A stretch of 35,728 nt of DNA from Candidatus Schekmanbacteria bacterium. GTDB lineage: Bacteria; CSSED10-310; JACPHN01. The stretch covers positions 1-35,728 of the forward strand of contig JACPHN010000015.1 in NCBI GenBank assembly GCA_016188575.1, given 5' to 3'. Below the pieces are notes generated by a model. It was not told where the DNA came from, searched no databases, and saw nothing but the letters and a program-made list of their open reading frames with translations. This document shows positions 7-15,754 of the stretch, piece after piece. The first letter of the stretch is position 1, and each line of letters begins with the position of its first letter. The position numbers and the translations under genes were made by a program.

Positions 7-817
7 GTTGCTCCGCGTCTTCGGACGCGGCCCCATTGAAGCAATCGGCGCGGCGCTGCTGATGCTGGCGTGGGGGCGTTGCTCCGCGTCTTCGGACGCG
101 GCCCCATTGAAGCGCAGCTCACCAGCCGCAGCTCGTAATCTTCCATCAATGTTGCTCCGCGTCTTCGGACGCGGCCCCATTGAAGCCGACCCCGTGCCGA
201 GCTCGTAGGTCCAGTCGCAATCGGGTTGCTCCGCGTCTTCGGACGCGGCCCCATTGAAGCGTGAAACCAGCGAGCCGAGTCATGTGCCGGTAAGCCGTTG
301 CTCCGCGTCTTCGGACGCGGCCCCATTGAAGCTCGACGGGAAGCCTGCGGTAAAGCGCCAGTTGATTGAGTTGCTCCGCGTCTTCGGACGCGGCCCCATT
401 GAAGCAGAGCGAGGGAGAACAGCTTGCTCACCGCGCCGGCGGGTTGCTCCGCGTCTTCGGACGCGGCCCCATTGAAGCAAAGCTCAGCAAGTCGCTCATC
501 GTGCCCCAGCGGAGGTTGCTCCGCGTCTTCGGACGCGGCCCCATTGAAGCACCCATGCCGTGTAGTCGTTGCAGCAAGGTAGGTTGCTCCGCGTCTTCGG
601 ACGCGGCCCCATTGAAGCCAAGACGCCCATCAAGAACGGGGCACCCCCTATCATGTTGCTCCGCGTCTTCGGACGCGGCCCCATTGAAGTGTATGGGTCG
701 GGCTCGGGTTCCGGTTGGGGAACGATGTTGCTCCGCGTCTTCGGACGCGGCCCCATTGAAGTAGGGAGGTGAGGGAGGTGACCGAATGACTGCAGGTGTT
801 GCTCCGCGTCTTCGGAC
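7..817 (+). CRISPR. CRISPR array, leader-distal part (11 full repeats plus one truncated)
   Basis: Full 36-bp repeats start at 7, 78, 151, 225, 297, 370, 443, 515, 583, 655 and 727. A truncated copy at 798-817 keeps only the first 20 bases. The 11 spacers are 32-38 bp and unrelated to each other. Each repeat begins GTTGCT, then has a 7-bp stem CCGCGTC/GACGCGG closed by a TTCG loop, then CCCC and the end ATTGAAGC. That last 8-mer resembles the 5' handle of type I crRNAs. The repeats at 655 and 727 end in T instead of C and the last is cut short. Such decay is usual at the end far from the leader, so leader and older cas context should lie left of position 1, with transcription rightward. Positions 1-6 are the end of a further spacer. 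No cas gene is in the window. Subtype cannot be settled here; TTGAAGC endings recall some type I-G/I-U repeats, a weak hint only. Confidence 0.97.
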
Positions 818-1230: not shown

Positions 1231-3192
1231 ATGACGACTTCGTGGCCCCCCGAGACCTTGCCCGCCTCGCCCGCACGCCCCTATGCGCGTGCTCTCCAGG
1301 TTGCCACGGATGCCGCGCTCGCCGCCGGCGCCGTGCTTCGTGCGGAGTTTCACCGTCCCGATGGGCCGCGCGGCAGCGGCGGATCATGCCCGGCAGATGA
1401 AGAAGTCGAGGCGGGCATTCGCGCCGCATTGTCGGCGGTGTCCCCTGACTGGGGCTACCTCGGCGAGGAGCTCGGCGCGCACGCGGGGCCGGGCGGTGTC
1501 GGCGACGGCGTGCACCTCTGGCTGGTCGACCCCAACGACGGGACCACGTCCTTCATCCAGAAAAGGCGCGGAGCGGCAGTTTCCATCGCGCTGCTGCGCG
1601 CCGGCGTGCCGGTGCTCGGGGTCGTCTACGCCTACGCGGCGCCGGACGACAGCGGTGACCTCTTCGCCTGGGCCGAGGGCGAGGGGCCGCTGCGCCGCAA
1701 CGGCACCGTCATCGAGCGCGGGCCATTCGCCGAGGCGCTGCTGTCTCATCACCTGGTCTGGGTCTCGCAGGACGCCGATCGCAGCGCCGCCAGCAGTCGG
1801 CTCAATGCCGAGCTCTGCGCGCCCGCGCGCTTCCGCCCGATCCCGAGCATTGCTTACCGGCTGGCGCTCGTCGCTGCCGGCGACGGCGAGGCTGCGGTCT
1901 CGCTGAATCACCCCTGCGGGTGGGACTATGCGGCAGGCCACGCCTTGCTCCGCGCTGCGGGCGGCGAGCTGTGCGACGAGTCGGGCGCCCCGGTGCGCTA
2001 TGCGGTCCGCGGCCACAGCGCGGTTGGGAGATGCTTTGGAGGGGGTCCGGGTCCGACCCGGGTGCTGTCGCGCCGCAACTGGCATCAGGTATTCGAAGTT
2101 GCGCGCGATTCCGCACCCGAGACGCCCTTTGCGCTGCTCGTCGCGCCGCGGCACCTGGTTGCGGATGCGGGGCGCCTCGGGCGCGCGCACGGCTGCTTGC
2201 TCGGTCAGCTTGCCGGAGACGCGCTTGGCAGCCTCGTCGAGTTTCAGGGCCGCGACAGTATCGCCGCGGCGTATCCCGGCGGCCTGCGAAATCTTGCGGA
2301 CGGTGGCGCATGGAATACGATCGCAGGGCAACCCACCGATGATTCCGAGCTCGCACTGGCGCTGGCGCGTTCTCTCGAACAAAGCCACGGGTTCGACATC
2401 GAAGCGGTAGGGCGCGCCTACGCGTACTGGTATCGAAGCAACCCATTCGACATCGGCACCACAACCGCCACTGGCCTCTCTGCCGCGGCCGCGGCGCTGC
2501 TGCGTGGCGATTCCGCGGCGGCCGGCGCGCAACAGGCCGCGCGAGCGGCCAGCGCGGGCAGCCAGGCGAATGGCGCGCTGATGCGCTCGTGCCCTCTCGG
2601 CATCCGCGGCGCCGAGGTCGACCCCGACGTGCTCGCCGGTTGGGCGCGCGCCGATGCCGCGCTCACGCACCCACATCCCGTTTGCTGCGACTCCTCCGCG
2701 CTCTTCGTCGTCGCCATCGCCTTTGCAATCGCCGGCGGGCCAACGCCCCGCGAGGTTTACGAGCGCGCCCTCACGTGGGGCACGGGCGCGGGCCTGGAAG
2801 AGGCGGTCCTGGCTGTTGTCCGCACCGCCCGCGACGAACGGCCGCGGCACTATTCCCAACAGATGGGCTGGGTCTTGATCGCGCTGCAGAATGCCTTCTA
2901 CCAGTTGCTGCACGCTCCCGACCTCGAAAGCGGCGTCGTCGACACGGTGATGCGCGGCGGTGACACCGATACCAATGGCGCCATCGCCGGCGCCCTGCTC
3001 GGCGCCGTGCACGGACGCCGCGCGATCCCGCCCCAGTGGCGCGACCTGGTGCTCTCGTGCCGCCCTGTCAACGGTGCGGCGAACGTGCATCATCCACGCC
3101 CGCGCGCGTTTTGGCCGGTCGACGCCCTGACGCTCGCCGAGGCGCTACTTGCGCCCCGCCCGAATGACCCCTCAACGCCCGGGCGCCGGTGA
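1231..3192 (+). CDS. Inositol-monophosphatase-like / ADP-ribosylglycohydrolase fusion protein
   Basis: This is a 653-aa cytoplasmic two-domain enzyme with no signal peptide. Residues about 15-270 are an IMPase/CysQ-type, Mg-dependent phosphatase fold: GEE at 78-80, the metal-binding motif WLVDPNDGT at 97-105 and the second motif GWDYAAGHALLRAAGG at 230-245. Residues about 315-653 are an ADP-ribosylglycohydrolase (DraG family): GCLLGQLAGDALG at 321-333, metal ligands in PTDDSE at 368-373 and the C-terminal GGDTDTNG at 576-583. Both active-site motif sets look intact. The start is ATG 1231, with GGAG six bases upstream; a GTG at 1192 in frame lacks a site. The 3' end overlaps the convergent MCE gene by 21 bp. 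Family knowledge says phosphatase on a sugar or nucleotide phosphate, and removal of ADP-ribose from protein, DNA or small molecules. The joint substrate is unknown; a pathway through a phosphorylated ADP-ribose is only a guess. Confidence 0.9.
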   Translation: MTTSWPPETLPASPARPYARALQVATDAALAAGAVLRAEFHRPDGPRGSGGSCPADEEVEAGIRAALSAVSPDWGYLGEELGAHAGPGGVGDGVHLWLVDPNDGTTSFIQKRRGAAVSIALLRAGVPVLGVVYAYAAPDDSGDLFAWAEGEGPLRRNGTVIERGPFAEALLSHHLVWVSQDADRSAASSRLNAELCAPARFRPIPSIAYRLALVAAGDGEAAVSLNHPCGWDYAAGHALLRAAGGELCDESGAPVRYAVRGHSAVGRCFGGGPGPTRVLSRRNWHQVFEVARDSAPETPFALLVAPRHLVADAGRLGRAHGCLLGQLAGDALGSLVEFQGRDSIAAAYPGGLRNLADGGAWNTIAGQPTDDSELALALARSLEQSHGFDIEAVGRAYAYWYRSNPFDIGTTTATGLSAAAAALLRGDSAAAGAQQAARAASAGSQANGALMRSCPLGIRGAEVDPDVLAGWARADAALTHPHPVCCDSSALFVVAIAFAIAGGPTPREVYERALTWGTGAGLEEAVLAVVRTARDERPRHYSQQMGWVLIALQNAFYQLLHAPDLESGVVDTVMRGGDTDTNGAIAGALLGAVHGRRAIPPQWRDLVLSCRPVNGAANVHHPRPRAFWPVDALTLAEALLAPRPNDPSTPGRR

Positions 3193-6200: not shown

Positions 6201-8798
6201 CTAGCTTTGGCTGACCTCGGCGATGCCGTCCGTGACGACCGTCTCGCCGGCGGAATTGATCACATTGAAGCCATAGATCGTCAGCCCGGGCTCCCCGCCG
6301 GTCTTCCAGGCCTGCGTGGTGACCGTATCTCCTGGGCGGACGGGTCTGCTGAACCGCACCTTGAGGCGCTTCAGGCGGCGCGGGTCCCCCCCAGCGGCAT
6401 TTTTCACGAAAGCCTGGGACGCAAACGCCATGGTGCACAGGCCATGCACGATAATGCCGCCGAGGCCGGCGGCCTTGGCCGCGCTGTCGTCCACGTGAAT
6501 GGGGTTATCGTCTCCGGACGCGGCGGCGTAGGCAAGCGTCTGATCGGGGCGAATCACCATCGCCTCACTGAAGGCGAGCTCGGGGAGCTCGGCCGGCGAC
6601 GCCGACCCCGCTCCTGCCCCCGCATCCTTCTTCTTGCTCTTGTCGCGGCTGCGAATAAAGAACCGGAAGGTCGCGTCGCATGCGGAGCTGCCATTGCGCA
6701 AGCAGGATCCGGTCAGATCGAGAATCTCCCCGGAAGATTTCTCCTCGATCGCGGTGATGGCGGCCTTGACCTCGATCAGGTCGGATGCGTAGATCGGCTG
6801 GTGGAAGCGCATGTCTTGCTCGCCGTGCAGCAGCATCATGAAGTCGACGTTGAGCTCGGGGTCGAGCGCCGCGCGGCCGCAAACGTCACGGAGGATGCGC
6901 ACCGGAAAGAGCACGGGCGCCATCGCGCGTGCAGGCGGGTCAGGTGCGATGTAGAACGGGTTGGGGTCGTTGGTCGCCAGTGCGTACGGAATGGTCTCGG
7001 ACTCGCGCACGAAATATGGGGCGGTGGTGTACACCTTCCCTAGAAACGCTCGATTGAGGCCTTTTCGCGGTGCCGGCTCGGCCGCGATCGCGGTCGAACC
7101 GGCAACGGCGGCGGCAGGAGTGGCCGGCGGTACGGCGGCGGCTGCCCCGGTCCCTGCCAATCCTTCCAGCGCCGCCCTCACGGCCTTCGCCGCGGCCTTC
7201 TGATCGAAGCACGTCCCGTACTTCATCATGTCGCCCATGTTCGTCGCCGTAATCTTGCCCTGCATGAACGCCTGAGTGCCGTCTATTTTCCCTTGCGCCA
7301 TGCCAAAAAACGTATCGGCATCCATCTTGAGCACGCAGGTCGGGTTCTCGGGGGCGGCCGCGACCACGCGCGCCGCACCGCCGTCCACGAGCATGCCGAA
7401 GTCCCCGCAACCCGCCAGACAGAAGTGGAGATGAGCTTTCCAATCTCCAGCCCGCTCCGGAAGGAGAGTGGAGGAGATCGCTTCGAGCACGGCGACGGCC
7501 TTGCGGCGCGGATCTTCTACCACGCTCTGGGGACCGGGTCCGGCGATTTCTGCGAGCGCGGTGCGCACCGCCGCCTGCGCCTTCCGCTGGTCGAAGCTGG
7601 TGCCGTAGCGCATCATGTCGGCCATGTTGGTCGTGGTGACCCGGCCCTGGATGAAGGCCTGGGTGCCATCGATCTTGCCCTCGGCCATGCCGAAGAAGGT
7701 CTCGTCGTCCATGCGAATGACGCAGGTGGCGTTGGGGCTCGCGCCGTCCGCGACGGCGGCACGCCCCTCCGAGACGGTCATGGAGAAGTCGCCGCAGCCC
7801 TTCACGGCAAAGTGCAGAATCGCTCGCCAGTCACCGGCCTTTTCGGGATTGAGCGCGGAAGCGATCGCGCCGAGCACGCGCCGGCACTTCTCCGCAGGAT
7901 CCACGCGCGCGGCTCCGGCGCCGCCCGGCGCCGCCTTGCGCATGTCTTCCCGGGCGCGATCGGCGTCGGATTTCGCGATTTCCTCCAGGCGTTCGTGGAT
8001 CTCCCGCGGGGACCAGCGCTCCTTGCCCTTGTCCACGCCTTTCGTCATCTCCATGCGATACTCGAAAAGGTGATTACCGTGGACTCCAAAGATCCGTCCC
8101 GTGATGTCCCGCGCGAGGTCCGACGCGAGGTACAAGACCATGGGCGCGACGAGATCCGGGGAGGCATCCTCGGGCACCATGTCGATGTCGTCGGTCATCC
8201 GCGTCTTGGCCATCGGGGCAATGGCGTTGACCGTGATTCCCTTCTTTTGCAGCTCGAGCGCGATCACCCGGGTGAATCCGGCAATCCCGGCCTTCGCCGA
8301 GCCGTAGTTGGCCTGGCCGAAGTTCCCCTTCAGGCCCGCGTAGGACGAGGTGTTGATGATCCGGCCGCCGGATCCTTGCAGGGTCATCTGATCGGCGGCG
8401 AGCTGACTGCACAGAAACGTGCCCTTGAGATGGACGTTGACAACGGTGTCCCACAGCTCGTCGCTCAGGTTTCGCAGCGACTTGTCCCGCAGGATGCCGG
8501 CGTTGTTGACGAGCACGTCGACGCGTCCGAAAGCGTCCACCGCGGTCTTGATGATCCCCAGGGCGCCGTCGCGGGTGGCCACGGAATCGTAGCTCGCCAC
8601 GGCTGCTCCGCCGAGCTCGGCGATCTCCGCCACGACACGGTCGGCCATGGCCATTCCCGACCCGCCGCCTTCCCGGGTGCCCCCGAGGTCGTTGACGACG
8701 ACCTTTGCCCCTTCCCGCGCGAACGCGAGCGCGTAGGCGCGGCCGAGCCCCCCGCCGGCGCCCGTGACGATTACGACCTTGCCATCGAACAAGCCCAT
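6201..8798 (-). CDS. Multifunctional enzyme: SDR dehydrogenase - SCP2 - SCP2 - MaoC hydratase
   Basis: This 865-aa protein resembles peroxisomal multifunctional enzyme type 2 (HSD17B4) with the domains reordered. Residues 1-300 are a 3-hydroxyacyl-CoA dehydrogenase of the SDR family: cofactor motif GAGGGLG at 13-19, NNAG at 98-101, catalytic Ser151/152, Tyr165 and Lys169. Two SCP2 sterol-carrier domains follow at about 302-415 and 430-545. They are close copies of each other, sharing GKIDGTQAF at 374-382 and 503-511. A linker at about 550-580 rich in Ala and Pro leads to a MaoC-type double hot-dog hydratase at about 585-865, with the hydratase-2 motif GDDNPIHVD at 762-770. Predicted work is hydration of an enoyl-CoA and oxidation of the hydroxyacyl-CoA, with SCP2 binding lipid acyl groups. 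ATG 8798 has AGGAGG upstream. The gene is 22 bp behind the thiolase gene, in the same operon. Confidence 0.92.
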   Translation of the reverse strand: MGLFDGKVVIVTGAGGGLGRAYALAFAREGAKVVVNDLGGTREGGGSGMAMADRVVAEIAELGGAAVASYDSVATRDGALGIIKTAVDAFGRVDVLVNNAGILRDKSLRNLSDELWDTVVNVHLKGTFLCSQLAADQMTLQGSGGRIINTSSYAGLKGNFGQANYGSAKAGIAGFTRVIALELQKKGITVNAIAPMAKTRMTDDIDMVPEDASPDLVAPMVLYLASDLARDITGRIFGVHGNHLFEYRMEMTKGVDKGKERWSPREIHERLEEIAKSDADRAREDMRKAAPGGAGAARVDPAEKCRRVLGAIASALNPEKAGDWRAILHFAVKGCGDFSMTVSEGRAAVADGASPNATCVIRMDDETFFGMAEGKIDGTQAFIQGRVTTTNMADMMRYGTSFDQRKAQAAVRTALAEIAGPGPQSVVEDPRRKAVAVLEAISSTLLPERAGDWKAHLHFCLAGCGDFGMLVDGGAARVVAAAPENPTCVLKMDADTFFGMAQGKIDGTQAFMQGKITATNMGDMMKYGTCFDQKAAAKAVRAALEGLAGTGAAAAVPPATPAAAVAGSTAIAAEPAPRKGLNRAFLGKVYTTAPYFVRESETIPYALATNDPNPFYIAPDPPARAMAPVLFPVRILRDVCGRAALDPELNVDFMMLLHGEQDMRFHQPIYASDLIEVKAAITAIEEKSSGEILDLTGSCLRNGSSACDATFRFFIRSRDKSKKKDAGAGAGSASPAELPELAFSEAMVIRPDQTLAYAAASGDDNPIHVDDSAAKAAGLGGIIVHGLCTMAFASQAFVKNAAGGDPRRLKRLKVRFSRPVRPGDTVTTQAWKTGGEPGLTIYGFNVINSAGETVVTDGIAEVSQS

Positions 8799-8820
8799 GA
8801 TGTCCTCCTGTCGCTGTCGG

Positions 8821-10029
8821 TCAGGCGTCGAGCCGACCGACGATGGTGACGCTAGAGATGTTGTTGAATGGCATGCCGCCAAGATTGTGGGTGAGACCGA
8901 GGCGTGGGTTCGCAAGTTGTCTCGCGCCGGCCTTGCCGTGGAACTGGAGGTACATCTCGTAAAGCATCCGCAACCCCGAAGCGCCGATTGGGTGCCCAAA
9001 GCACTTCAGCCCGCCGTCCGGCTGGCAGGGAATGGTCCCCGCGAGGTCGTAGAACCCGTCCAGGATGTCGTGCACGGCGCGCCCGCGGGCGGAGATGTGC
9101 AGGTCTTCGTAGGTCACGAGCTCGGTAATGGAAAAGCAGTCATGCAGCTCCATCATCGAGATCTCCTGGCGCGGGTCCTTGACGCCCGCTTCGCTGTATG
9201 CGCGCGCTGCAGCCTTCGAGGTCGTGATGAAGTGGTCACCTGCCCACTGGTCGAATTGCGCCTCGGCGCCGTTGCTCAAGGCGAGCTGCAGCGCCTTGAC
9301 GCTGACCAGATCCTTCTTGCCGAGCTCGCGCGCGATTTGCGGCGTCGTGACGATGGCGGCGGCCGAACCATCGCTTACGCCGCAGCAGTCGAAAAGACCC
9401 AGCGGGTGCGCGATGATGGGCGCGGCCATGACCTGATCTACGGTAACCGCCTTGCGCAGGTGTGCCTTCGGATTCTTCGCCCCGTTGGCGTGGCTTTTCG
9501 TGGAAACGTGCGCCATGGCCCGCTTGAGATCCTCATTCTTGATGCGGTAGCTGGCCGCATAACTGCTCGCCAGCATGGCGAACGTTCCCGGCGCCGTCAT
9601 GTTGGGCATCCACAGCCAGGGCAGCGCGCCGATCCCCGATCCCTGCGCCGGTAGGCCACCGTATCCCGTGTCCTTGAGCTTCTCCACGCCGAGCGCCAGA
9701 CAGATGTCATAGGCCCCCGACGCGACCGCGTAGCACGCGCCGCGGAACGCTTCGGTGCCGCTGGCGCAGAAGTTCTCCACGCGCGTAACGGGGATATTCG
9801 GCAGTCGCAACGTGTTCGACAAGGGCAACGCGCTCTTGCCGACGTTGATTTCGTTGAGGCACGTCGCAAGCCAGGCCGCCTCCACTTGGGACTTCTCGAT
9901 TCCCGCGTCCGCGAGCGCCTCCTGGAACGCCTCGACCATGAGGTTTTCGGCGCTGCTCTCCCAGCGCTCGCCAAAACGCGTGCAACCCATCCCGATGACT
10001 ACAACCTTGTCTCTTATTCCTGTCGCCAT
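8821..10029 (-). CDS. SCP-x/lipid-transfer type thiolase (acetyl-CoA acetyltransferase family)
   Basis: This 402-aa enzyme is a thiolase, expected to cleave a 3-ketoacyl-CoA or to condense acyl-CoAs. The nucleophile Cys88 lies in ENFCASGTEAF. The conserved GHPIGASG is at 345-352 (His346) and THNLGG at 381-386. The HNLGG ending in place of a second CxG cysteine marks the SCP-x/sterol-type branch, whose members often work with DUF35 partner proteins. Such a DUF35 domain is present in the next upstream gene product. The start is ATG 10029 with GGAGAG upstream; a frame extending to 10176 has no conserved residues. The gene lies 17 bp after the HMGCS-like gene and 22 bp before the SDR-SCP2-MaoC gene. 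Together they could complete a beta-oxidation-like cycle. Confidence 0.93.
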   Translation of the reverse strand: MATGIRDKVVVIGMGCTRFGERWESSAENLMVEAFQEALADAGIEKSQVEAAWLATCLNEINVGKSALPLSNTLRLPNIPVTRVENFCASGTEAFRGACYAVASGAYDICLALGVEKLKDTGYGGLPAQGSGIGALPWLWMPNMTAPGTFAMLASSYAASYRIKNEDLKRAMAHVSTKSHANGAKNPKAHLRKAVTVDQVMAAPIIAHPLGLFDCCGVSDGSAAAIVTTPQIARELGKKDLVSVKALQLALSNGAEAQFDQWAGDHFITTSKAAARAYSEAGVKDPRQEISMMELHDCFSITELVTYEDLHISARGRAVHDILDGFYDLAGTIPCQPDGGLKCFGHPIGASGLRMLYEMYLQFHGKAGARQLANPRLGLTHNLGGMPFNNISSVTIVGRLDA

Positions 10030-12087: not shown

Positions 12088-13308
12088 TCACAGGTCGCGG
12101 TCTGTCGTGTCGCGGGGCACCGCCTGGTTATCGCTCGTGCGGTCCGCCTCGCGCGCGGTGCGACGCCGCGGCCTGGGCAGCGGCATGAGTCGCTTCATCG
12201 CCTCGAGCTTGCCGAAGCAGATCAGAATGTCACCACGCAGGATCTGGCACGCGGGCTGCGGATTCGGGATGGCGTGGTTTTCGCGCAGGATACTGAGCAC
12301 TGTGATGTCGAGCTCTCGCAGCCCGGCGTCCAGCAAGCTCAGCCCCGCCATCGGACTGCCGGGTCCGATCGGGATCTCGGCGACACCATAGCCGCCGGCA
12401 ATCGTGAGCCGCTGCCGCAGGTCGATCTCCGGAAGCCGGACCTGGCGCTCCAAAAATTCGATGATTGCGCCCGCAACGTTGGTCTGCGTTGCCCGCTCGA
12501 TGCCTTCCAGCCCGGGAGACGAGTTGACTTCCATGACGAGCGGTCCGTCGCACCCCTCGAGCATGTCGACGCCGGCGACGTGCAGGCCGATGATCTGCGC
12601 GGCGCGAATAGCCGTCCGCTCGTATGCGGGGTCCAGGTCAATAGGCGCGACGTCACCACCGCGATGGACATTGCTGCGGAACTCGTTGCCCTTCGCCATC
12701 CTGCGCATCGCCGCGACGACGCGGCCGCCGACGACGAACGCGCGGATGTCCTTGCCTCTACTCTCCTGAACAAACCGCTGGATGAGCACGTTTTGCCTGG
12801 TGCTGTGGAGAGTCTCGATGATCGCCTCGGCGACGCTTTCGGTCTCGGCGAGAATCACTCCGACGCCCTGGGTTCCCTGCAACAGCTTGATGATCACCGG
12901 AGCGCCGCCCATGGAGCGGATCGTGGGCAGCAGCGACGTCCCTTCGCGGACGAAGGCGGTCGAGGGAATGCCGATGTCATGGCGGCTCAAGACCTGAATG
13001 GCCCGCAGCTTGTCCCGGGACACGACGATCCCCTGAGAGGAGTTTACGCAAAACACCCCCATTTGCTCGAACTGCCGCACCACCGCCGCCCCGAAAAACG
13101 TGATCGAGGCGCCGATTCTGGGAATCACGGCCTCGATGCCGCGCACCTCTCGCGTGCGGTAGTGCAGGGACGGCGCGCCCCTTTCGACGCGAATCGCGAA
13201 CTTGAGCGGATCCATCGTCCGCACCGTGTGCCCGGCTGCCAGCGCGGCTTCGCGGAGGCGCCGCGTGCTGTGAATGCGCGAACCTTGCGAGAGGATGGCG
13301 ATCTTCAT
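12088..13308 (-). CDS. rimK: RimK-type glutamate ligase fused to TrkA-C (RCK-C) domain
   Basis: This 406-aa cytoplasmic ATP-grasp ligase adds glutamate residues to a protein C-terminus; in E. coli the target is ribosomal protein S6. Residues 1-300 follow E. coli RimK closely: MKIAILSQGSRIHSTRRLRE at the start, AVIPRIGASITF, the nucleotide loop KLLQGTQGVGV, FRSNVHRGG and the metal-binding VMEVNSSPGLEGIE. E. coli RimK ends there. This protein continues with about 80 residues (about 305-388, with VAEIPIGPGSPMAGLSL and QILRGDILICFG) that match a TrkA-C domain, a small ligand-binding module usually found on potassium channels and transporters. A basic tail follows. ATG 13308 was chosen because it is where RimK homology begins; no strong ribosome site is seen. 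The gene lies 61 bp after the wecA-like gene on the same strand. Confidence 0.92.
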   Translation of the reverse strand: MKIAILSQGSRIHSTRRLREAALAAGHTVRTMDPLKFAIRVERGAPSLHYRTREVRGIEAVIPRIGASITFFGAAVVRQFEQMGVFCVNSSQGIVVSRDKLRAIQVLSRHDIGIPSTAFVREGTSLLPTIRSMGGAPVIIKLLQGTQGVGVILAETESVAEAIIETLHSTRQNVLIQRFVQESRGKDIRAFVVGGRVVAAMRRMAKGNEFRSNVHRGGDVAPIDLDPAYERTAIRAAQIIGLHVAGVDMLEGCDGPLVMEVNSSPGLEGIERATQTNVAGAIIEFLERQVRLPEIDLRQRLTIAGGYGVAEIPIGPGSPMAGLSLLDAGLRELDITVLSILRENHAIPNPQPACQILRGDILICFGKLEAMKRLMPLPRPRRRTAREADRTSDNQAVPRDTTDRDL

Positions 13309-13369
13309 TGGCGAACGACCTGGTGCTGTCGGGCTACACGGTAGCCCAAATCGCAAACGGGCGCTATGG

Positions 13370-15754
13370 CTACAGGGCGGAGCGCAATGGCGGTGCCGGC
13401 CCTGAATCCGCCACCTGTTCGACGTCGACGCGACAGCGCCCCGCTCCGTCCCTCCCCCCGCTGGCGGGGGAAGGTGAGGTGGCGGGTCTTCGTGATGCGC
13501 TTTCCGCACAGCCTGCAGCCAAACCAGCGGTCGATTCAGGCGTCGGGGACGTTGTCGCGGCCTCCAGCTCCACGCCGCAACTTACGCCGACGGTATCGAA
13601 AAAAAAGCTCGCGCGATCGTCACCGCCCGTGTCCGGGTCATCGTTGACCATGAAAAACAGGGTCTGCAGGTGATAGCCAGCGAACTTTGCAAGCGGGATG
13701 CGCCGCCGATACCACCGCCCCAGCGCGAGCCCCGTCAAGTCCTCGTTCCAGAGCGCCGCAACGCCGTTCGTGTCGGGAGGCAAGCTCGACCACGTGTGGA
13801 GCTCCTCGCCGCCCGGCCCCACAAGAGAGGCCTGGACCGACGCGCGCAGCCAGGTTACTGCCGGCAGCAGGATGTCGTAGGACAACTCGTGATGCTCGGT
13901 GATTTCGAGGTCGAGATCGGTCAGGTAGGGAATCGCCTGGTTGGTGGCATGGTCGCCGTTCAATGGCATGGTCTCGACGTCGATGCGAATGAATCGATTA
14001 CCAAAGGCAGGCGTGATCGCTCCGCCATCGCTGTTCCCGATAACCGACTGAACCTCCCATCGCTTGATGCGCAGTCCGCTGCTCCCGGCCGATCGCGCCG
14101 TTTCGACTTCGCCGAAATCGTGCAGCGGCGGCGGAACGAGCGGAATCCCAGAAAAAAACACGAGCGGTATCGCAGCGTCGGGCGCGGCACTGGCGAGGAG
14201 CTCCTGCGCCGGCGGGCGCAGTTGCAGGCCCGCCGGCGCCAGGCCGGCCGGTACCGGCGAGAACGCCAGGAAGCGCTCGAGCGTCGGCGCATGGATGCGA
14301 GTCGCGCGCAACCGCCCATGGCGGTCGAAAATTAGATTCGGCAGGGTGGAAGCCGGGACGACGAGCGGCGGGACCTCTCCGACCACCTGACAGTCGCCGG
14401 CGGCAGGCCTGGCGCGCAGCGAAAGGGCGTCGATGCCCGCCGCGAAAGACCTGGCGTACATGAGCTCAAGAGGCGCGGAAAGCGCGGCGAGAAACACGAG
14501 CGCTCCGGCCGCCGCCAACGCGGCCGCGGCGAGCGGCCGGCGCGCGAATGGGGAAGAGGCGCTTGCCGCAGCCGCTTCCACGAGCTCCGCCACCCGCAGT
14601 AGCGTGGCATTGCGCGCGCGCGGTTCCGCGTCGGTCGCGACGACCGGCAGCGCCAGGCGAGCTTCAAGGAACGCGATGATGCGTGTGACGAACAGCAGGC
14701 CGAGGCCAAGCAGCCCCAGCACGATCAACGCGTACCGGTAGGGGATGATCACGAATGCGAAGGCGATCAGGCCCAGGTAGATACTCGCGAGGTGAAAAAC
14801 CCGGACCACCTGCCGGTGGCTGAGCCCGAGGCGGAGAAGCCGGTGATGCAGGTGAAGGCGGTCGGCACGAAATATCGGCGCCCCCAGGCGGTAGCGGCGC
14901 ACAATCGCCAGGCCGGTGTCGGCGATTGGCAAGCCGAGGCAAATCAGGGGCATCAGTAGCGCAATGGCGGTCGTGCTCTTGCGCGTGCTCACCAGACTGA
15001 CGGTAGCGAGGCAAAAGCCGAGAAAGAGACTTCCCGTGTCCCCCAGGAAAATGCGGGCCGGGTGTCGGTTGTGCCAGAAAAACCCGAGGCAGGAGCCGAG
15101 AAGAACGCAGTTGAGAAAGACCAGGGCCCACTCGGCCTCGCCGCCGTTGGCCAGGGCCACGCCCATGGCGAGCAAAGTCGCGCTGGTGATCCCGGCAACC
15201 CCCGTCGCCAGGCCGTCCAGGCCGTCAATCAGGTTCAAGGCGTTGGTGAGCGCCAGGACCCAAAGGACGGTGGCCGGGAGCGCCAGCGCGCCAAGCTCGA
15301 ATTTCCCGCCCAGGGGATTGGTAATCGCGGCGATGGCATAGCCGTGCGCATACAGAATCACGGCAGCGGCGATTTGCCCAGCCAGCTTCGCCCACGCCCC
15401 GAGGTGGAGGCGATCGTCCGCGAGACCAATGACAGTCAGCACCGCGACAGCGAAAAGAAAGCCGCCGGTATCGGGGAGCTGTGAGGGCGGGAGGATTCTG
15501 GGCCCGAGGAATCGTAACACAATCAGAAACGTGAGGGTGATGGCGATGCCCCCTGACGTCGGCATGGGGGCGGTATGAATGCGCCGTTCGGCGTCCACTC
15601 CCGGTCGGTCCAGGAAACCCAGCGTCCTCGCCAGGCCGCGCGCCACGGCGGTCGCGACGAAGCTGAGCAGAAGTGCGGCGAGAAACGTCGTTGCGTAGGC
15701 GCCGAGCCACATGAGCGACGGGCTCGCCGTGAGCATGTCCGGCCCCGGGGTCAT
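13370..15754 (-). CDS. WecA/TagO-like polyprenyl-phosphate sugar-1-phosphate transferase with extra C-terminal domain
   Basis: This 794-aa membrane protein starts surface glycan synthesis by moving a sugar-1-phosphate from a UDP-sugar to undecaprenyl phosphate. Residues 1-370 are the multi-span MraY/WecA domain with LADDRLHLGAW at 111-121, NALNLIDGLDGL at 171-182, a later FLGDTGSLFLGF and the FRADRLHLHHRLLRLGLSH loop. Unlike normal family members of about 350 residues, it continues with another hydrophobic helix near 430-455 and a globular region of about 280 residues. The last part (LGRWYRRRIPLAKFAG to FFFDTVGVS) looks like a beta-sandwich carbohydrate-binding domain, likely on the outer side of the membrane. 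The final 57 residues come largely from a dispersed repeat at 13421-13541. ATG 15754 overlaps the glycosyltransferase stop by 4 bp and has GGGGAG upstream. Confidence 0.88.
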   Translation of the reverse strand: MTPGPDMLTASPSLMWLGAYATTFLAALLLSFVATAVARGLARTLGFLDRPGVDAERRIHTAPMPTSGGIAITLTFLIVLRFLGPRILPPSQLPDTGGFLFAVAVLTVIGLADDRLHLGAWAKLAGQIAAAVILYAHGYAIAAITNPLGGKFELGALALPATVLWVLALTNALNLIDGLDGLATGVAGITSATLLAMGVALANGGEAEWALVFLNCVLLGSCLGFFWHNRHPARIFLGDTGSLFLGFCLATVSLVSTRKSTTAIALLMPLICLGLPIADTGLAIVRRYRLGAPIFRADRLHLHHRLLRLGLSHRQVVRVFHLASIYLGLIAFAFVIIPYRYALIVLGLLGLGLLFVTRIIAFLEARLALPVVATDAEPRARNATLLRVAELVEAAAASASSPFARRPLAAAALAAAGALVFLAALSAPLELMYARSFAAGIDALSLRARPAAGDCQVVGEVPPLVVPASTLPNLIFDRHGRLRATRIHAPTLERFLAFSPVPAGLAPAGLQLRPPAQELLASAAPDAAIPLVFFSGIPLVPPPLHDFGEVETARSAGSSGLRIKRWEVQSVIGNSDGGAITPAFGNRFIRIDVETMPLNGDHATNQAIPYLTDLDLEITEHHELSYDILLPAVTWLRASVQASLVGPGGEELHTWSSLPPDTNGVAALWNEDLTGLALGRWYRRRIPLAKFAGYHLQTLFFMVNDDPDTGGDDRASFFFDTVGVSCGVELEAATTSPTPESTAGLAAGCAESASRRPATSPSPASGGRDGAGRCRVDVEQVADSGPAPPLRSAL
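13421..13541 (-). repeat. Dispersed palindromic repeat, copy 1 (inside wecA-like gene 3' end)
   Basis: On the minus strand this reads GCCTGAATCGACC, GCGGAAAGCGCATCACGAAG, then a core CCTTCCCCCGCCAGCGGGGG and GGGACGGAGCGGGGCGCTG to GCGTCGACGTC. The copy at 25143-25258 has the same blocks in order. It encodes about residues 738-778 of the wecA-like protein in-frame, after its last conserved domain. Confidence 0.78.

Follow-up and report, generated by a model that had tools for sequence, protein, structure and literature searches.

ADP-ribosylhydrolases (ARHs) have usually been studied as single-domain erasers of ADP-ribose or as toxin immunity proteins, and DraG and Tri1, the nearest relatives of the protein described here, are hydrolases of the arginine type. 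The locus analyzed here encodes such a hydrolase in a different setting. It lies in a window of 35,728 bases from a Candidatus Schekmanbacteria bacterium, which is the entire contig C184 of assembly G000, and consists of an open reading frame for a 653-amino-acid protein on the plus strand (positions 1231-3192; ATG at 1231, stop at 3190-3192). Translation from an alternative in-frame GTG at 1192 would lengthen the protein by 13 amino acids, and either start is possible because homology begins only at about residue 16-20. The sequence-only reading of this DNA had claimed that two hydrolase domains are fused in one chain, and Pfam, AlphaFold and homologues all bear this out: an inositol-monophosphatase-like (IMPase) domain is followed by a DraG-type ADP-ribosylglycohydrolase domain, both with Pfam matches far above gathering scores. 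The motifs that it had listed are likewise present (WLVDPNDGT at residues 97-105, GWDYAAG at 230-236, PTDDSE at 368-373 and GGDTDTNG at 576-583). The two domains are followed by a conserved C-terminal tail (residues about 602-642; positions 3034-3156, plus strand) with the pattern CRP..G...PRP...WPVDAL.LAE.LL, in which R611, R623, P624, W628, D631 and E637 are conserved columns of the homologue alignment.

The IMPase domain spans residues 22-261 (positions 1294-2013, plus strand), as placed by Pfam PF00459 (Inositol_P) and by conservation. In a Pfam profile search of the window protein this half scored 116.7 bits (cutoff 27; E 1.7e-33), and its metal-ligand motifs are intact (GEE at 78-80, DPNDGT at 100-105, WD at 231-232); as judged by profile score and ligand motifs, the protein is a member of the PF00459 superfamily. 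Fifty family sequences were compared with 11 other IMPases, namely E. coli CysQ, SuhB and nine bacterial paralogues. The family-specific residues are R113, W147, R210 and H237, of which Arg210 is found in all 50 family sequences, Arg113 in 47 of 50 and His237 in 49 of 50, while the central position of DPxDGT is occupied by N, Q or H in 47/50 family sequences and by I or L in the 11 others. From these residues we infer a basic pocket that would fit a substrate with a second phosphate. The top-scoring curated model for this half is the CysQ-type nucleotidase TIGR01331, but the score of 84.6 is below its equivalog cutoff of 228.8, and in the IMPase tree the family forms a single clade apart from CysQ and SuhB (SH-aLRT 99.9). 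The N-terminal domain is thus predicted to represent a new subfamily of metal-dependent IMPase-fold phosphatases.

The ADP-ribosylglycohydrolase domain (residues 321-601; positions 2191-3033, plus strand) was placed by PF03747 (ADP_ribosyl_GH) and by alignment to the DraG structures 2woc and 2woe. It scored 209.7 bits (cutoff 26.2; E 9.2e-62) in the same profile search, and its motifs VEF (336-338), TDDSE (369-373) and GGDTDTN (576-582) are intact. Window residue D407 aligns with DraG Asp97, which was itself placed by alignment because the 2woe chain is a D97N variant, and 33 of the 35 members with an intact ARH site have Asp at the equivalent position. On the strength of its profile score, predicted fold and TDD and GGDTDTN ligands, this half belongs to the DraG-ARH family, although it does not reach the DraG equivalog cutoff (TIGR02662; 133.1 vs 337.05).

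An AlphaFold model was built with 38 homologues from the fetched loci, the plasmid homologues being left out of the alignment. Its mean pLDDT of 93.9 and pTM of 0.93 mean that the placement of one domain relative to the other is confidently predicted. Compared with the PDB, the ARH half of the model is closest to Tri1 (Z 39.6 over 294 residues) and DraG (Z 38.6, rmsd 2.2, 289 residues), with ARH3 also among its structural matches and a Listeria ART-ARH immunity protein close as well, and the N-terminal half matches IMPase/SuhB structures (Z about 29). Among the matches listed, no PDB entry contains both halves together. The nearest viral structural match is a 475-aa ADP-ribosylglycohydrolase of Marseillevirus LCMAC202 (BFVD A0A481YXX2; 409 columns aligned).

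The reading that we favor, tentatively and with slightly less than even confidence, assigns the protein a clean-up role in ADP-ribose and phosphonucleotide metabolism, as a soluble enzyme with two activities. The DraG-type domain, with its two-metal site, would release ADP-ribose by hydrolyzing its conjugates, with N-glycosidic (arginine-like) linkages the most likely targets; the IMPase domain would take a phosphate off a related small molecule that most likely bears a second phosphate. Candidate substrates for the phosphatase include 2'-phospho-ADP-ribose, 3'(2')-phosphoadenosine 5'-phosphate and ADP-ribose-1''-phosphate. Both activities, their substrates and a joint pathway are proposals, and the ARH activity would be the surer half. 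The sequence-only reading had likewise joined phosphatase and ADP-ribose chemistry acting on related metabolites, which is reasonable in view of the best-scoring CysQ-type model and of one neighboring gene. On the Rhodobacter plasmid locus L010, only 9 bp separate the two-domain gene from a NUDIX gene downstream of it, a single case in which the NUDIX protein scores weakly against every named NUDIX model. The NUDIX family includes ADP-ribose pyrophosphatases.

A search for the same architecture, which the sequence-only reading had proposed, gathered 42 further two-domain homologues (43 members including the window protein). Carriers include an Acidobacteriota MAG, Myxococcota MAGs, proteobacterial plasmids of Azospirillum, Rhodobacter and Pseudomonas luteola, and members of several other phyla. 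In a domain-wide sample a match at E <= 1e-60 was found in 12/386 genomes, with ARH-only members counted too, and 41/377 genomes from the phylum to which one Myxococcales MAG belongs matched at E <= 1e-50. Every one of the 43 members matches both the DraG and the CysQ model of NCBIfam. The IMPase-ARH combination is thus met with repeatedly in several bacterial phyla and seems to be undescribed, since no such fusion was found in the open-access literature. Viral carriers of the fusion were considered and rejected: the viral_contigs scan yielded no tblastn-confirmed relative, and phages carry relatives of the ARH half only. The long N-terminal extensions of four open reading frames from the Myxococcota phylum (L096, L097, L101 and L104) share no mutual similarity and probably reflect a chance upstream open frame. 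At two loci the two-domain gene is preceded, at 1-4 kb, by another ARH gene that is only distantly related (L012:2145-4223 on an Azospirillum plasmid, L005:5665-6717 in an Acidobacteriota MAG); in the Azospirillum protein, about 390 residues at the N terminus match no Pfam family.

The two halves are separable: decay of the ARH half has occurred repeatedly and is seen at different stages, and each half is also found alone. Metal ligands are kept in the IMPase domain of 40/43 members, in the ARH domain of 35/43 and in both domains of 35/43. Ligand loss, which the sequence-only reading had set against its own interpretation, is therefore false for the window protein and true of at least one domain in 8/43 members. 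The ARH domain has decayed beside a retained IMPase domain in L043, L104, L111 and L115 and is eroded in L116, L119 and L120, the last two keeping a remnant of about 190 aa. ARH-only members exist as well, and genomes G111, G032 and G547 have an ARH without a family IMPase. One apparent pair of single-domain genes, IMPase-only L034 and ARH-only L035, was rejected as a case of loss, the two being halves of one gene split between contigs of G062. In the trees, IMPase-only L015 and L016 lie beside the fusion L011, and L119 and L120 beside L104 and L115. This nesting of IMPase-only members inside fusions suggests one fusion with losses afterwards; it should be noted that the trees were made by a quick method and leave many forks open, and that the direction of change depends on outgroup rooting. 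For the pair L104-L115, dN/dS is 0.12 in the IMPase domain and 0.40 in the ligand-less ARH domain, but the apparently intact pair L107-L108 gives a similar 0.42, so that 0.40 alone is no proof of relaxation. In genus g122 both domains lack their ligands in three species (L039:6794-8563, L040:6459-8225 and L041:6167-7933), with SALSG in place of DPNDGT and with LENSE and GGDTSKN in the ARH half, and yet both domains have dN/dS of 0.08-0.16, indicating strong purifying selection. The protein thus appears to be kept for something besides these reactions, and the g122 homologue is likely a pseudoenzyme with a retained function.

These losses bear on how closely the two reactions are coupled. The two sites might act as a dedicated two-step enzyme on a phosphorylated conjugate of ADP-ribose, removing ADP-ribose and dephosphorylating the same substrate or its product, for example at DNA or RNA ends or on NADP-derived 2'-phospho-ADP-ribosyl groups, with the plasmid and fused forms feeding a RecB-like nuclease-helicase and the protein of one lineage converted as a whole into a conserved but catalytically dead ligand sensor; we regard this as improbable. 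Separate ARH decay, ARH-only members and ARH genomes lacking the family IMPase argue against one obligate pathway, and since some lineages have lost one half independently of the other, the two reactions are probably of use one by one and not as an obligate relay. The same independent losses favor a view in which two housekeeping hydrolases were fused by chance, the IMPase domain acting on an inositol phosphate or sugar phosphate unrelated to ADP-ribose. Mostly unconserved neighbors are also consistent with this view, as is the predicted phosphatase fold, which is as near to inositol monophosphatases/SuhB as to any other solved phosphatase. We nevertheless consider it unlikely, if still a credible competitor, since the fusion persists over several phyla with both sites intact in most members, the conserved tail and confident domain orientation suggest an integrated unit, and Arg210, Arg113 and Asn102 distinguish the IMPase half from inositol monophosphatases.

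The gene neighborhood contributes little that recurs. Downstream of the two-domain gene the window encodes, on the minus strand, MlaD, an ABC ATPase and MlaE, followed by lipid-metabolism and envelope enzymes. Two other proteins of the window have composite architectures: a 932-aa SDR, SCP2 and MaoC-type protein (6201-8999, minus strand) that recalls eukaryotic peroxisomal multifunctional enzyme type 2, and a RimK-type ATP-grasp ligase with an extra C-terminal TrkA_C domain (12088-13509, minus strand). Across loci, distant lineages were seen to share no neighbor family beyond generally common ones, ABC and AAA ATPases among them. Among the 96 nearest neighbors, the commonest families, generic kinase-type and WYL models, occur in only three, although weak recurrent neighbors could be missed, since gene calling in this GC-rich DNA relied on a simple ORF heuristic. 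Random neighbors, the second kind of finding that had been set against the sequence-only interpretation, are thus largely the rule for chromosomal homologues.

A nuclease association is seen at a few loci. TM0106 RecB-like nuclease-helicase genes lie near the two-domain gene on plasmids L010 and L011, and at L093 (5505-11741) one 2078-aa open reading frame, coding-consistent in codon-position GC along its whole length, joins an IMPase domain, a degraded ARH domain (TDTTE, GGDADAN), a RecB-like nuclease and an SF1 helicase. Such links would fit a protein that cleans nucleic-acid ends: phosphorylated DNA or RNA termini capped with ADP-ribose would first be uncapped by the ARH domain, the terminal phosphate thus exposed would be taken off by the phosphatase, and the protein would in this way assist anti-phage nucleases or the processing of DNA/RNA. 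This alternative is distinctly unlikely in our estimation, and it is retained because of the nuclease links and the action of ARH3 on RNA terminal phosphates. Among about 50 loci only three show the links, the one fused example has degraded ARH ligands, and the nearest relatives of the domain act on arginine-type linkages; to our knowledge, IMPase-fold enzymes are small-molecule phosphatases. The biochemical precedent points both ways: ARH3 strips ADP-ribose from RNA whose 5' or 3' end is phosphorylated, the phosphate staying in place, and ARH1 is inactive on RNA ends (PMC6582358).

The sequence-only reading had also placed the gene in a defense neighborhood on account of an adjacent CRISPR array. 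The array is genuine: 11 full repeats of 35-36 nt at positions 7-761, spaced by about 72 bases, and one truncated repeat ending at about 817 make up its distal (trailer) end (7-817, plus strand), which stops 413 bp before the ATG and was judged to lie outside the unit. As the window is the whole contig, the array runs off the contig start. Its repeat occurs elsewhere only on contig C228, in three copies, and that contig carries a type I-G locus (L132:56-8502) with Cas4g/Cas1g on the minus strand and Cas3g, Cas8g1/Csx17 and a GSU0053 Cas7-type protein on the plus strand. The common repeat suggests that C184 and C228 are joined, and because the truncated last repeat is on the window side, the two-domain gene adjoins an ordinary CRISPR-Cas locus at its trailer end. 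A CRISPR-linked or other anti-phage or anti-toxin role, for example the reversal of a nucleotide-based or ADP-ribosylating toxin, would be compatible with this arrangement, with the WYL, restriction endonuclease, TM0106 nuclease and AAA ATPase genes near plasmid homologues, and with the similarity of the ARH fold to Tri1 and the Listeria immunity protein. We consider it very improbable, although plasmid members may have a part in defense. None of the other homologue loci fetched, with flanks mostly of 5-8 kb and some shorter, contained an array, a 'CRISPR-like' match at L007 being three short repeat units and no array, so that proximity to CRISPR or cas genes amounts to one instance, short of the recurrence expected of a CRISPR-Cas accessory gene. 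None of the PADLOC defense families matches the window protein, and no defense model matches more than three of the 96 nearest neighbors. No ADP-ribosyltransferase domain was detected among the ten downstream window genes scanned, the upstream side being the array, and a toxin-immunity pair of ADP-ribosyltransferase and ARH was rejected on this ground. Hence, with Mla, lipid and envelope genes downstream and unconserved neighbors elsewhere, CRISPR or defense was dropped as the main explanation for lack of recurrence across loci, and the proximity looks incidental. What stands of the sequence-only interpretation are the intact domains, their recurrence across phyla and a predicted rigid body; the defense neighborhood is not supported.

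A widespread family in which an ARH is paired with a distinct phosphatase suggests that bacteria have a phospho-ADP-ribose metabolite or modification so far undescribed. With only a few candidate substrates, all of them accessible, the question is directly testable; lineages in which one or both sites are dead offer natural separation-of-function variants.

Each half can be set beside described systems. The phosphatase half shares with CysQ the His at 237, but CysQ has Lys where the family has Arg210, and the family differs further in its polar DPxDGT residue and a short insertion, PDD, at residues 138-140. With inositol monophosphatase/SuhB it shares the fold and all metal-ligand motifs, but it forms a separate clade and has Arg210 for Asp and Arg113 for Pro. 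Likewise, the ARH half resembles R. rubrum DraG (2woc/2woe) in fold, metal motifs and the Asp97 equivalent, and differs in being fused behind an IMPase domain. Its closest structural match is the ADP-ribosylarginine hydrolase immunity domain of Tri1 (6dre), from which it is set apart by a score of 75.6 bits against a cutoff of 490; in addition, no ADP-ribosyltransferase was found next to its gene in the window.
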